NCBI RefSeq assembly: GCF_019052805.1
Contig: NZ_JAHQRJ010000001.1
Span: forward strand, 2,666,001 to 2,730,000
Direction of reading: 5' to 3'
DNA from: Noviherbaspirillum sp. L7-7A
GTDB lineage: Bacteria > Pseudomonadota > Gammaproteobacteria > Burkholderiales > Burkholderiaceae_D
Length of the DNA stretch: 64,000 bases
Part shown: piece after piece, positions 48,346 through 52,136 of the stretch
Layout: every line of letters starts with the position of its first letter
How positions within the stretch are numbered: the stretch's first letter is position 1
Program-made: the position numbers and the translations under genes
Notes under the pieces: generated by a model
Database searches by the model: none
Told to the model about the DNA's origin: nothing
The model's input: only the letters and a program-made list of their open reading frames with translations

Positions 48346-48652
48346 AAATGACCGGGTTGTGGAGAAGCGGTGCGGGGACGCTGAATATGCGGTCCGAAAA
48401 GCATGACAATGCGCCATGCTTGTGGATGAAATACGTCAGCCATGGTGGGAGATGGCATTTTGGCCTTTATTTAAAGGGCTTTTTCAACTTGTGGGTTTTT
48501 GATGCGTGAAGGGCTTTGGTTTATAGCCTGAATGGCAAAGGTTATGGTGCTTGTTAAGCAAGGCTTTAATTCTGTAGCGCTTGCTGTAACTCTTCAAGTC
48601 CCGTTGAGCGCATCCTGTCAGCGATGTCTGGAGCAGATAAGGCGTGGTGTTC

Positions 48653-48685
48653 GTAGGGTGCAATACCCCGAAGGGGCATTGCACC
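48653..48685. repeat. Hairpin repeat, left member of an inverted pair
   Basis: GGTGCAATACCCC and GGGGCATTGCACC pair around GAA, preceded by GTAG. An inverted copy lies at 48738-48768. Palindromes of this type are dispersed repeats in many proteobacterial genomes. Confidence 0.85.
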
Positions 48686-48737
48686 TTTGGTCGATCAGGG
48701 AAGTCGGCCCACAATGCGAGCCCGGTTTGCGAACGGC

Positions 48738-48768
48738 GGTGCAATGCCCTTTGGGTATTGCACCCTAC
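48738..48768. repeat. Hairpin repeat, right member of the inverted pair
   Basis: GGTGCAATGCCC and GGGTATTGCACC pair around TTT and end with CTAC. Together with 48653-48685 it forms an outer inverted repeat of about 115 bases. Confidence 0.85.
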
Positions 48769-48795
48769 AACTGCAATCGCAGTTACGCGCAGCGA

Positions 48796-48840
48796 CAGTT
48801 GCAGTTGCAGTTGCAGTTGCTTTTGAAGTTGCAGTTGCAG
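48796..48840. repeat. GTTGCA tandem repeat next to element copy A
   Basis: Four GTTGCA units, then TTTTGAA, then two more units. The same arrangement, with GGCC-containing units, precedes copy B at 49458-49522 in inverted orientation, so the tandem tract appears to be part of the element. Confidence 0.85.
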
Positions 48841-48845
48841 TGAAA

Positions 48846-49070
48846 TCCCGTTGAGCGCGCCGTGTCAGCGGTGCCCGGAGCGGGAAAAGGTGCGGCGTCT
48901 GTCTGAGCGCAACGCAGTGGAGCGAGTTTAGCCGCGCCCCGCTCCGGGTACCGCTGACACGGGAACCCTGCGTCAGCAGGGCGCGATCACCGGGTCGCCT
49001 TTTTTTGGTTACTTTTTTTGGCGAAGCAAAAAAAGTAACCCGGCCGCCGGGACGGACTCCCGGCTTGTGT
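48846..49070 (+). repeat. Structured repeat element, copy A
   Basis: Starts CCCGTTGAGCGCGCCGTG. Four hairpins follow in order: P1, arms 48862-48884 and 48938-48960 (23 pairs with one G-U), enclosing a conserved core with GCGGCGTCTGT and GAGTTTAGCCGCG; P2, CCCTGC/GCAGGG (48966-48981); P3, GGTTACTTTTTTTG/CAAAAAAAGTAACC with loop GCGAAG (49007-49040); P4, GCCGGG/CCCGGC (49046-49064). Copy B keeps the order but changes arm sequences on both sides. Confidence 0.85.
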
Positions 49071-49237
49071 CCACGGCAGTGCAGCCGCATTGCGTCACCC
49101 GGCAAGGCACGGGCAGCACTGTCGGTGTTGACGTTCGATGTGTTCGTTGAACAAGACCCTTAACTTCAAAAGCAACTGCTGCTTCGCAGTGACGTCTTTA
49201 TCCCTGATAAAACAAGCTTACTGCACTGTCGTCATGA

Positions 49238-49457
49238 CCAGGCCGGGTGTTCGCCCCGGCAGGCGACTTACTTCTTTTGCTTCGCCAAAAGAAGCAGGCA
49301 AGAAAAGGCGACCCGGTGATCGCGCCCCGCTGCGCGGGGTCCCCGTGCCGTCGATGGCTGAAGCGGGGCGCGGCTAAACTCGCTGCGCTGCGCTCAAACA
49401 GACGCCGCACCTTTTCCCGCTTCAGCCATCGACGGCACGGCGCGCTCAACGGGACTT
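49238..49457 (-). repeat. Structured repeat element, copy B (inverted relative to A)
   Basis: Reading the minus strand from 49457: CCCGTTGAGCGCGCCGTG, P1 with arms 49438-49416 and 49367-49345 (23 perfect pairs), the same core as copy A, P2 with CCCCGC/GCGGGG (49325-49339), P3 CTTCTTTTG/CAAAAGAAG with the loop GCGAAG (49271-49294), and P4 GCCGGG/CCCGGC (49242-49260). It shares the flanking text ATCACCGGGTCGCCTTTT with copy A. Confidence 0.85.
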
Positions 49458-49522
49458 AAAAGCAACGGCCACTGCAACGGCCACTTCAAAAGCAACGGCC
49501 ACTGCAACGGCCACTGCTTCCG
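49458..49522. repeat. GTTGC-type tandem repeat next to element copy B
   Basis: Units of AGCAACGGCCACTGCAACGG occur twice, separated by CCACTTCAAA; on the minus strand this reads GTGGCCGTTGC...TTTTGAAG, the counterpart of the tract beside copy A. Confidence 0.85.
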
Positions 49523-49532
49523 CTGCCCCGGC

Positions 49533-49685
49533 TTAACCCTCCCCCTTATCATCATCCTGCAGCACCCGCAGCGCCGGCCCCACCATGTCATCAAACTGTC
49601 CACTATCAGACATCCGAAAAAACACCCAGATCGCCGCGAACACAATCACGATACTCAGCGGCACCAGCAGATATAAGGCATCCAT
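49533..49685 (-). CDS. ccoS: Cytochrome oxidase maturation protein CcoS
   Basis: 50 residues, below the usual ORF cut-off. It begins MDALYLLVPLSIVIVFAAIW, continues FFRMSDSGQFDDMVGPA and ends DDDKGEG. One membrane helix and the FF.W..SGQFDD motif are diagnostic of CcoS, needed for cofactor insertion into cbb3 oxidase. It starts three bases after the ccoI stop. Confidence 0.93.
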   Translation of the reverse strand: MDALYLLVPLSIVIVFAAIWVFFRMSDSGQFDDMVGPALRVLQDDDKGEG

Positions 49686-49688
49686 TGC

Positions 49689-52136
49689 TTAACTTCCTTT
49701 CCGTCCGCCGCGCAAACGAAGCGCGTTGGCAATCACCAGCATGGAACTGACCGACATGCCGATGCCCGACATCCATGGGGTGATCAGTCCCGCCGCCGCC
49801 GCGGGGATGGCGATCATGTTGTAGACCATCGCCCACGCCAGGTTCTGCCGCACCACCGCCATCGCGGCATCGGCGCTTTCAGCGGCATCGGCAAGCGCTT
49901 CCAGTTTGCCTGTCAGGAGCACTGCATCCGCATGGCTCTGGGCCAGCGCAGCGCCGCTGCCCATGGCGAAGGAGACATCGGCAGCGCCCAGCACCGCGCA
50001 GTCGTTGATGCCATCTCCCACCATCGCCACCACCGCGCCTTCACGCTGCAGGCGCTGCACATAGGCCAGTTTCTGTTCCGGCAACTGGTTGCCCAGCGCT
50101 TCGGCTATGCCCAACTTCTGCGCCACTTCCTGCGCCATCGCCTGCTGGTCGCCGCTCAGGAGGATGACCTGCTTGCCTGCCTTCCTGAATCTCTCCACCA
50201 CGTCATGCGCATCGTCACGCAAGCCATCCGCCAGGTCGAAGCGGGCCAGCAGGCTGCCTTCCCTGCCCAGCCAGACTGCGCTGACACCAGGCATGTCGGC
50301 CGGCGCCAGGAAACGGCCACTGAGCTGCGCGACGAAGTCAGCCCGGCCCAGCCGGTATGGGATGCCGTCGATCGAGCCGGCGACGCCCTGCCCGGGAAAC
50401 TGCATCAGGTCGCTGGCGCAGAGCCGATGCCCGCCAGCGGCGCTTGTGAGCGCCTGCGCCAGCGGATGGGCGCTGCAGGCTTCCAGCGCGGCGGCAATGT
50501 CGAGGCAGGCTTCACGCTCGACGCCGCCATACAGGCCGACATCGCGCACGACCGGCTTGCCCACCGTCAGCGTGCCGGTCTTGTCGAAGACCACATGGGT
50601 GGCGCGGTGCAGGGTTTCCAGGACATGCGGCCTCAGGATCAGCACGCCGCGGCGCAGCAGGCTGTCGGTGGCGGCGGCCAGTGCGCTGGGCGTGGCCAAT
50701 GACAGCGCGCACGGACAGGACACCACCAGCACCGCGATCGCCACCGACCAGGCGCGGGCGGCATCATGCCATTGCCAGAACAGGAACACGGCGGCAGCCA
50801 GCAGCAGCAGGCCCGCAACGAACCATGCCGCAACCCGGTCAGCCCATTGCGACAGGGCCGGCTTGCCCTGGCCGGCGCTTTCCGCCATGCGCACCAGGGA
50901 GGCCAGCGTGCTGGCGCCGGCACGGCGGCTGACCTGCAGCAGCGCCGCCTGGCCGGCATTGACCGCGCCGCCGGGAATGGCGTCGCCCGCAACCTTCTGC
51001 TGCGGCGCGCTTTCGCCGGTCAGCAATGAGACGTCGATGCTCGTCTGGCCTTCCAGCAGCACCGCGTCGGCCGCGACCGGCTCGCCGGGCCGCACCAGAA
51101 TCACGTCGCCCGGCTCGAGGTCGCCTGCCGCCACCGTCACCGTATCGCGGCTGGCCGGATAGGCCGGCAGGCGTTGCGCGGCATCGGGCAGGCCATGCTG
51201 CAGCCGCTCCAGCGCATGGGCGGCGCGACGACGCGCGGTCAGCTCCAGCAGCCGGCTGCACAGCAGCAGGAAGATGAACATCGTCACCGAGTCGTAGTAG
51301 ACCTCGCCGCTGCCGCGCAGGGTGGCAGCCACGCTGGCGATGAAGGCGGCGCCGATGCCGAGCGCCACCGGCACATCCATGGTCAGCGCGCGCTGGCGCA
51401 ATGCGGCCCAGGCGCCGCGGAAGAAAGGCTGCGCGGAATAGACGACAACCGGCAGCGTCAGCAGCAGGCTGGCCCATTGCATCAACGCGGCCATGTCCGC
51501 TTCCAGCGTGCCGTCGGTGGCGAGATAGGCCGGCACCGCATACATCATCACCTGCATCATCGACAGGCCGGCGATGAACAGTTGTCGGCCCAGCGTCTTG
51601 CCGCTTCGGCGCAGTTGCGCCTCATGCCGGGCCGGATCGAAGGGATAGGCGGGATAACCGATTTCCCGCATCGCGCCCAGGATGCCGCTGAGCTTGCATT
51701 GCGCCGGATCCCAGCGCACGAACAGGCGCCCGGTCGCGACATTCATGTTGGCCGCCACGACGCCGGGCAACTGGCCGAGACGCCGCTCGATCAGCCAGAC
51801 ACAGGCGGCGCAGCGCAAGCCGTCGACCGACAGCGTGGCTTCAAGCATGCCGTCGGGATTGCGCGACACATCGTTCGATGTTGACTGGTCATACAGCCGC
51901 AGCTGCGCCGGCAGTGCAGCGCCCTGCTCCGCCGTGACCGCAAAGTCGGTGCGATTGCGATAGTAATCCGTCATGCCGTTCTGCACGATGGCCTGCGCCA
52001 CCGCTTCGCATCCCGGGCAGCACATGCTGCGCGCAAGGCCGTCGATCTCCACCGCCCAATGGCTGTTGGCCGGGACCGGCAGGCCGCAATGGAAGCAGCC
52101 GTCGGCAGCCTTGATTTCCCTTGGCAGCGCGCTCAC
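49689..52136 (-). CDS. ccoI: Copper-translocating P-type ATPase CcoI/FixI
   Basis: 815 residues from a GTG at 52136, which overlaps the upstream stop (GTGA) and has GGGAG seven bases before it; another GTG at 52169 is open but lacks a site. Domains: a Cys-rich N-terminus (CFHCGLPV, CCPGCEAV), an HMA domain with LRCAACVWLIER, membrane helices including the CPC copper motif SCPCALS, the phosphorylation site DKTGT, and MVGDGINDCAVL. It exports Cu(I) toward the periplasm for cbb3 assembly. Confidence 0.95.
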   Translation of the reverse strand: MSALPREIKAADGCFHCGLPVPANSHWAVEIDGLARSMCCPGCEAVAQAIVQNGMTDYYRNRTDFAVTAEQGAALPAQLRLYDQSTSNDVSRNPDGMLEATLSVDGLRCAACVWLIERRLGQLPGVVAANMNVATGRLFVRWDPAQCKLSGILGAMREIGYPAYPFDPARHEAQLRRSGKTLGRQLFIAGLSMMQVMMYAVPAYLATDGTLEADMAALMQWASLLLTLPVVVYSAQPFFRGAWAALRQRALTMDVPVALGIGAAFIASVAATLRGSGEVYYDSVTMFIFLLLCSRLLELTARRRAAHALERLQHGLPDAAQRLPAYPASRDTVTVAAGDLEPGDVILVRPGEPVAADAVLLEGQTSIDVSLLTGESAPQQKVAGDAIPGGAVNAGQAALLQVSRRAGASTLASLVRMAESAGQGKPALSQWADRVAAWFVAGLLLLAAAVFLFWQWHDAARAWSVAIAVLVVSCPCALSLATPSALAAATDSLLRRGVLILRPHVLETLHRATHVVFDKTGTLTVGKPVVRDVGLYGGVEREACLDIAAALEACSAHPLAQALTSAAGGHRLCASDLMQFPGQGVAGSIDGIPYRLGRADFVAQLSGRFLAPADMPGVSAVWLGREGSLLARFDLADGLRDDAHDVVERFRKAGKQVILLSGDQQAMAQEVAQKLGIAEALGNQLPEQKLAYVQRLQREGAVVAMVGDGINDCAVLGAADVSFAMGSGAALAQSHADAVLLTGKLEALADAAESADAAMAVVRQNLAWAMVYNMIAIPAAAAGLITPWMSGIGMSVSSMLVIANALRLRGGRKGS

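Follow-up and report, generated by a model that had tools for sequence, protein, structure and literature searches.

A dispersed family of inverted repeats with a predicted triple-helix pseudoknot in Noviherbaspirillum and other members of its class

The inverted pair of structured repeat elements found between positions 48796 and 49522 of the window (the whole stretch of 64,000 nucleotides from Noviherbaspirillum sp. L7-7A, genome G000, that was analysed) is probably, if with some reserve, one copy of a dispersed and non-autonomous repeat family that extends across the class and would act through a predicted fold. Sequence comparison supports the fold, a pseudoknot stem within it (S1), a pairing rule for a triple helix, an asymmetry of wobble pairs, the existence of many copies, and their presence or absence between species; mobility of the element is likely. 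In the mechanism that we propose, each half-unit would specify a single-strand fold of ~200 nt, composed of a three-way junction (P0/P1/P2), an H-type pseudoknot and then the hairpin P4, with a pyrimidine linker (L1) lying as a third strand in the major groove of the stem S2. The folding strand would be RNA from a read-through transcript, and not single-stranded DNA; a trans-acting enzyme would recognise the fold and spread the units, here nearly always as inverted pairs, and the host would tolerate them between genes.

The original prediction had described two copies in an inverted pair, and every part that it named was found in its place; what had been overlooked is that half A, a spacer and half B together are the unit that recurs here, with ~615 bp plus tracts. 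A period-6 tract (GTTGCN; 48787-48842, plus strand) runs into half-element A (48843-49067, plus strand), which is followed by a spacer between the two tails (49068-49238), conserved among copies save for about 49120-49160, and by half-element B (49239-49456, minus strand), into which runs an imperfect tract with repeat spacings of 12 and 18 (49456-49518, minus strand). The P1 arms of half A (5' arm 48860-48884, 3' arm 48938-48962, plus strand) are 96% complementary with a single G-U, and those of half B (3' arm 49343-49367, 5' arm 49416-49440, minus strand) are 100% complementary. As had been claimed, the 5' arms of A and B differ at seven positions, each with a matching change on the opposite arm, and the differences in P2 (48966-48981 in A, plus strand; 49325-49339 in B, minus strand) and P3 are also as described, except that the P3 of B is flawed in its lower part. 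Above P1 in half A, a short stem, P1b (5' arm 48890-48896, 3' arm 48931-48937), leads to a conserved apical core, TGTCTGAGCG...GCGAGTTT (48899-48929, plus strand).

The CCCGTTGAGCGCG block, which had been listed as a separate part, is present; it is the 5' arm of an additional stem, P0, that had escaped notice. In the fold of half A the partner of this block is GGCGCGATCACCGGG, located 3' of P2, so that P0 closes a three-way junction around P1 and P2, after which P3 follows. The P0 5' arm of half A (CCCGTTGAGCGCGCC, 48847-48861, plus strand) is indicated by both the fold and covariation, and its 3' arm lies at 48982-48994. In half B (5' arm 49439-49453, 3' arm 49312-49324, minus strand) the minimum-energy fold pairs the region otherwise, and it is covariation that backs P0.

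Compensated differences in the stems had been taken as a sign of selected pairing rather than decay, and this is strongly supported. The fold energies lie well below those of dinucleotide shuffles (z -9.7 for A and -7.5 for B, with 0 of 200 shuffles folding as well). Twenty-four genus-level halves were used to build a covariance model, half L039A having been dropped after the first alignment because it was chimeric. Among them, 30 of 63 pairs carry two-sided changes (shuffle mean 15.5) and pairing extends to 96.6% of cells (87.6 on average in shuffles), a figure that falls to 40-45% with slid partners; the observed values are matched by none of 500 shuffles, save in the count of further pair types, where 1 of the 500 does so, these covariation shuffles being of a kind that ignores kinship. 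When the model was applied to 90 chosen loci, 157 matches were obtained, of which 150 were aligned and 141 were distinct, partial and opposite-strand matches included. In these 141 rows from many genera, in an alignment that is fitted to the model, two-sided changes occur in 62 of 63 pairs (shuffle mean 53.3), 2480 cells are changed on both sides (shuffle mean 754) and the covariation score is 0.620, versus 0.155 in shuffled data. Free of any alignment, the P1-side strands of 84 elements pair with a mean of -69.5 kcal/mol within their own element, versus -47.1 when swapped between loci. Uncompensated arm differences across many copies, which would have spoken for decay, were looked for, and what was found instead is that substitutions in the element track base pairing. 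A single-strand fold is strongly supported by these comparisons.

P3 is not the plain hairpin that it was first taken for; it belongs to a predicted pseudoknot. A polypyrimidine linker precedes P3 and mirrors its 5' arm, and the five bases located 5' of this linker pair with the P3 'loop', giving a stem, S1, that crosses S2 (the P3 stem). In half A, on the plus strand, the order is S1 5' strand (TCGCC, 48995-48999), L1 (TTTTTTT, 49000-49006), S2 5' strand (49007-49019), S1 3' strand (GGCGA, the 'loop', 49020-49024) and S2 3' purine strand (49028-49040), followed by P4 (49045-49064, ends approximate). Half B repeats this arrangement on the minus strand, with the S1 5' strand (TCGCC) at 49307-49311, L1 (TTTTCTT) at 49300-49306, the S2 5' strand at 49287-49297, the S1 3' strand (GGCGA) at 49282-49286, within the 8-bp GCTTCGCC (49279-49286), and the S2 3' purine strand at 49267-49278.

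The tally of S1 was made on distinct sequences (26 from the own genome and 177 from others, a few of which are chance matches). UCGCC/GGCGA is the main type, with 161 distinct sequences, and compensated alternatives are CCGCC/GGCGG (11), CGGCC/GGCCG (3), UGCCC/GGGCA (3, two of them read by hand), and the rarer GCGCC/GGCGC (2), UCGUC/GACGA (2), UGGCU/GGCCA (1) and UGUCU/GGACA (1). Uncompensated combinations also occur, namely GCGCC/GGCAA (5), GCGCC/GGCGA (2), UCGCC/GGGCG (2) and several single cases. Counting one more type from the loci added below, support for S1 rests on ~8 alternative types, mostly rare. Fifteen loci were added from the order and class sets, 14 of which could be parsed, giving 20 structures; S1 has at least 4 pairs in 15 of these, and a further compensated type, CCACC/GGUGG (1), appears among them; here a sequence's own S1 averages 4.25 pairs, versus 2.80 after swapping between types.

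With regard to the third strand, L1 matches the purine arm of P3 in parallel orientation, U.A and C.G. In one register, 352 of 362 positions obey this triple rule, versus 63-74% in the others, and 49 of the 53 distinct combinations follow it without exception, where shuffles reach a mean of 9 and no more than 18; this count is conditional on S1, because only the 311 of 321 parsed pseudoknots with an S1 of at least 4 pairs were kept. Among the structures from the added order and class loci, the triples are perfect in 15 of 20, and some of the 5 imperfect rows reflect a misplaced linker (e.g., in UGCCC/GGGCA, read as GGTGC plus CC); these were scored as misses. Wobbles are unevenly spread along S2: among 116 sequences of other species, 8 fall in pairs 1-8, under the triple, versus 98 in pairs 9-13 below it, pairing of pairs 1-5 having been required. 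The element thus has an S1 that crosses S2 with compensated changes, as is expected of an H-type pseudoknot with a major-groove triple helix, and an L1 that runs parallel to the purine strand of S2 with U.A and C.G, as is expected of a triple-helix pseudoknot, and a triple helix in P3 is predicted. A direct-repeat rule for the linker was discarded, because 10 of 85 C-sites agree with it, whereas with the parallel rule 41 of 51 do; from H-DNA alone the mirror is expected, and S1 is not. The requirement of C.G-C triples for a protonated C counts against the triple-helix reading.

As to which strand folds, G.T mismatches amount to 416, versus 106 for A.C and 425 for other mismatches, in the 120 distinct rows among the best 125 of the wide set, where the model slightly favours G.T; in other species, when pairs 6-13 of S2 are counted with no covariance model, G.T again exceeds A.C (101 versus 18). 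In the own genome, G.U to A.C counts are 90 to 43 in P1, 69 to 4 in P1b and 70 to 24 in P3, with no excess in P0 (25 to 22) or P2 (11 to 16), and in the P4 of the genus set the relation is reversed (1 to 8). The overall excess of G.U over A.C suggests that only one of the two strands folds, and on balance points to a strand running from the 5' tract to the 3' tail, either RNA or single-stranded DNA, with RNA being likely.

The same counts bear on the proposal that the pairing is generated by copying and not by selection, through template switching between palindrome arms or gene conversion. Near-perfect palindromes such as the P1 arms are a known substrate of arm correction, and P1 is the stem with the closest wobble counts (G.T 153 versus A.C 84 in the wide set). 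Recombination between A and B halves is also suggested by the counterpart of locus L019 in the relative G002 (L218, G002:C32:51300-53300), in which A and B look collapsed to a short hybrid hairpin, suggesting a deletion across the inverted pair. However, template switching would not give more G.T than A.C, nor does the proposal account for the compensation of a 5-bp S1 that crosses S2 or for the parallel triple rule. Since compensation is seen in S1 and L1, copying is unlikely to be the whole cause of the pairing, and we consider this explanation very improbable.

A weightier alternative is that the element functions as single-stranded DNA, for instance in a lagging-strand template or a transfer intermediate, serving as the substrate of a DNA transposase, with any RNA being incidental. 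A single DNA strand also permits G.T wobbles and pyrimidine triplexes (PMC4666352), the hairpin-forming REP doublets provide a known analogue (PMC3116915), and the P3 loop is the sole target found for an IS66-family element in this genome. This insertion sequence has 1,495-1,496 bp and encodes a 465-aa DDE_Tnp_IS66 protein, whose nine protein matches in the own genome correspond to seven copies (five intact and two frameshifted), with no further match there at E 1e-30 or better and none in the genomes G001-G003. Each of the seven copies found (L237-L243, C1:162652 to 2852914) sits in the P3 loop of a B half, and in every case the plus strand of contig C1 encodes the transposase. The 8-bp target, GCTTCGCC or its complement, which includes the S1 3' strand, forms a direct repeat at five copies and an inverted one at two, as after inversion. 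The known use of palindromic REPs as specific targets by insertion sequences (PMC1525189) is comparable, the pair here being an IS66-family element and a pseudoknot loop. The DNA form is opposed by the finding that Y1_Tnp, the one HUH family tested, tracks the element poorly, and to our knowledge the hairpins of HUH systems are far shorter and less elaborate than a half-element. We regard it as somewhat unlikely, and RNA from a read-through transcript is retained as the preferred form. Among the three options of the original prediction (a structured RNA, a cruciform target of a nuclease or transposase, and a non-autonomous mobile element), the last one and a structured single strand are those that fit, with the P3 loop being the IS66 target at 7/7 copies.

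Candidates for the mover were sought among known enzymes. A retroelement with its own reverse transcriptase was discarded, with 0 RVT_1 matches in G000, a result that speaks against a resident enzyme and leaves room for one that was lost or foreign. Y1_Tnp, the transposase of the RAYT/IS200 type, has matches in 181 of the 300 genomes taken from the order, and its association with the element is weak (it occurs in 73 of 106 genomes with the element and in 108 of the 194 without; odds ratio 1.76, p 0.027, uncorrected for kinship), in a comparison that assumes the same 300 genomes in both searches; it was also rejected as the mover. This frequency of Y1_Tnp, together with inverted pairs and high copy number, could be accommodated if the element belonged to a REP/RAYT (BIME, REPIN) system, whose inverted doublets likewise act as a mobile unit (PMC3116915, PMC2817692). 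Nevertheless, no Y1_Tnp match was found in 33 of the 106 element-bearing genomes, nor in G003, which carries the element, although REPINs and BIMEs go with a RAYT (Y1_Tnp). Size and architecture are also unlike: REPs are palindromes of 20-40 nt with a GTAG or CGTC tag, according to the sections considered of PMC3733652, whereas the half-unit has about 220 nt and no such tag was seen at its ends. Moreover, GTAG-tagged REP-like doublets adjoin the element as a separate entity. Membership in a REP/RAYT system is therefore hardly credible in our estimation.

One such inverted doublet lies in the window (GTAGGGTGCAATACCC...GGGTATTGCACCCTAC, 48653-48768), the REP label being given by resemblance, and adjoins a truncated third half-element (48596-48634, plus strand), which continues into the REP-like sequence. 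Open frames run across the repeat on the minus strand (48695-49105; e.g., one of 136 aa); they look like chance frames and carry the risk of being annotated as hypothetical proteins.

In the own genome, 87 matches to half A were obtained, many of which cover no more than one arm, and 37 loci were examined after duplicates had been removed, with at least one further copy, at C1:2502059, recovered by the covariance model search. BLAST detected two or more halves, mutually inverted, in 35 of the 37 loci; in the other two, L022 and L025, a partner half is present that a REP-like doublet truncates at its core. The spacer and tails are conserved among copies, as are the halves. Seven B halves are interrupted by an insertion sequence, and four (L012, L022, L025 and L032) end at the core and continue into REP-like sequence. 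The tract GTTGCNGTTGCNGTTGCNGTTGC has 388 matches in the genome, and among the matches listed there are 15 clusters, all of them beside element loci. Loci of other species comprise 73 singles, 38 divergent pairs and 7 convergent pairs, the last being the type in the window. Since singles and divergent pairs are commoner there than convergent ones, the half is the basic unit, in a variable arrangement. Different tract units, e.g., GTTTTG, are also seen in other species.

Turnover was addressed by searching two relatives, G001 and G002, for the flanking coding pieces of 14 loci. Six of the 14 were resolved in G002, four of which (L010, L011, L012 and L017) are occupied, partly as judged from positions; the remaining eight are split over contigs, several of which end within the repeat, or are represented by a single flanking piece. 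The site of L007 lacks the element in G002, with about 25 bp in place of about 880 in G000, and the sixth site, that of L019, holds the collapsed A/B remnant. Three loci were resolved in G001, with L010 occupied and L008 and L011 without the element. L012 is apparently complete in G002 and truncated by the REP-like sequence in G000. Orthologous sites thus differ in the presence or absence of the element, as do those of mobile elements, with three element-free sites; no clean target-site duplication was observed at these, where the flanks are highly diverged, and the empty sites may stem from either insertion or loss.

The distribution of the family is wide. With filters stricter than those used elsewhere, which make these figures lower bounds, the covariance model detected the element in at least 106 of the 300 genomes taken from the order (at least 55 of 135 genera) and in at least 82 of 369 genomes of the class (at least 69 of 272 genera). 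Among the matches listed, the carriers include Variovorax, Polaromonas, Herminiimonas, Collimonas, Undibacterium, Methylobacillus, Iodobacter and a Pasteurellaceae record (L154, which matches the covariance model). The remark that similar GTTGC-flanked elements exist in other proteobacteria was correct, such elements having been found in the comparisons. Carriage by phages or plasmids was rejected: half A had no match in 50,697 phage records, and a Variovorax half had five in 72,556 plasmid records, one of them full-length, in a 2.48-Mb Variovorax replicon. Three Pasteurella multocida plasmid records (H2-H4) match part of the Variovorax half.

The scan of the window with Rfam 15 at the gathering threshold returned three tRNAs and a ZMP/ZTP riboswitch (RF01750, 14138-14242, minus strand), and no family for the element; a permissive scan of 48500-49700 gave 29 matches, all of them under the thresholds, with miRNA hairpin models at the top. 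In ten loci of relatives, Rfam matched rRNA and RNase P alone, away from the element. Searches of the open-licence PMC literature brought up no account of the element among the records listed, which does not mean that none has been published.

H-type pseudoknots with a major-groove triplex are known from telomerase RNA, SAM-II/SAM-V and preQ1-II. The element resembles them in the order S1-L1-S2, in an L1 parallel to the purine strand of S2, and in U.A-U and C.G-C triples; it differs in that most copies are predicted to have 6 to 8 triples in a row and in being a dispersed repeat, with the pseudoknot placed behind a three-way junction. The element's family was not found named in our searches. 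As regards repeats, BoxC, PIT and TM are dispersed bacterial intrastrand triplex repeats that have been linked to genome variation. BoxC spans about 36 nt and is a class II triplex of G/C-rich purine motif, whereas the element has a pyrimidine motif, in the class IV order of that work, within a pseudoknot and a larger fold; the associated database tallies class IV motifs in bulk, and the element is not described in the sections considered of this article (PMC4666352). BRE is similar in being dispersed in Betaproteobacteria, including Polaromonas, Rhodoferax and Acidovorax, with transcripts reported from a BRE-containing region; in Bordetella it has 75-91 bp and forms head-to-tail arrays of up to 8, and by this description the element would differ from it, though the two may overlap (PMC3110155, sections considered). 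The nearest prior art in the sources considered would be the BoxC/PIT triplex repeats and BRE, the latter compared by description.

Triple helices at RNA 3' ends are a known stabiliser, as in MALAT1 and PAN, which raises the question of whether the element is a cis-acting RNA at gene ends, stabilising or ending transcripts in the manner of eukaryotic ENE triple helices, with its multiplicity being secondary. A position at gene ends is indeed apparent in the own genome, where 20 loci without insertion sequence, out of 30, comprise 9 convergent, 10 tandem and 1 divergent setting, with both neighbours assigned by codon composition. However, the bias is absent in other species, in which 18 convergent, 41 tandem and 9 divergent settings, versus 92, 260 and 79 for gene pairs that lack it, give no clear preference, and singles are sense in 16 cases and antisense in 10, with genes assigned by ORF length. 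The sites also vary between close species. We thus consider a role at gene ends quite unlikely. An intrinsic terminator was set aside on inspection of the sequence alone.

The reading as a dispersed repeat acting through its fold can be carried further, to class-wide mobile RNA elements that would move or persist via a pseudoknot of the telomerase kind, placed behind a three-way junction and holding 6 to 8 triples without a break, and a putative partner protein, the six-base tract being a by-product of copying; this extension is tentative, and we give it rather less than an even chance. If the proposal is true, long pyrimidine-motif triple helices would be present in many copies across a considerable fraction of a bacterial class, and chance open frames crossing the element could pass for genes in annotation. 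It would also offer many natural compensated variants in which triple-helix formation could be tested, as well as a starting point in the search for the enzyme that acts on the element.
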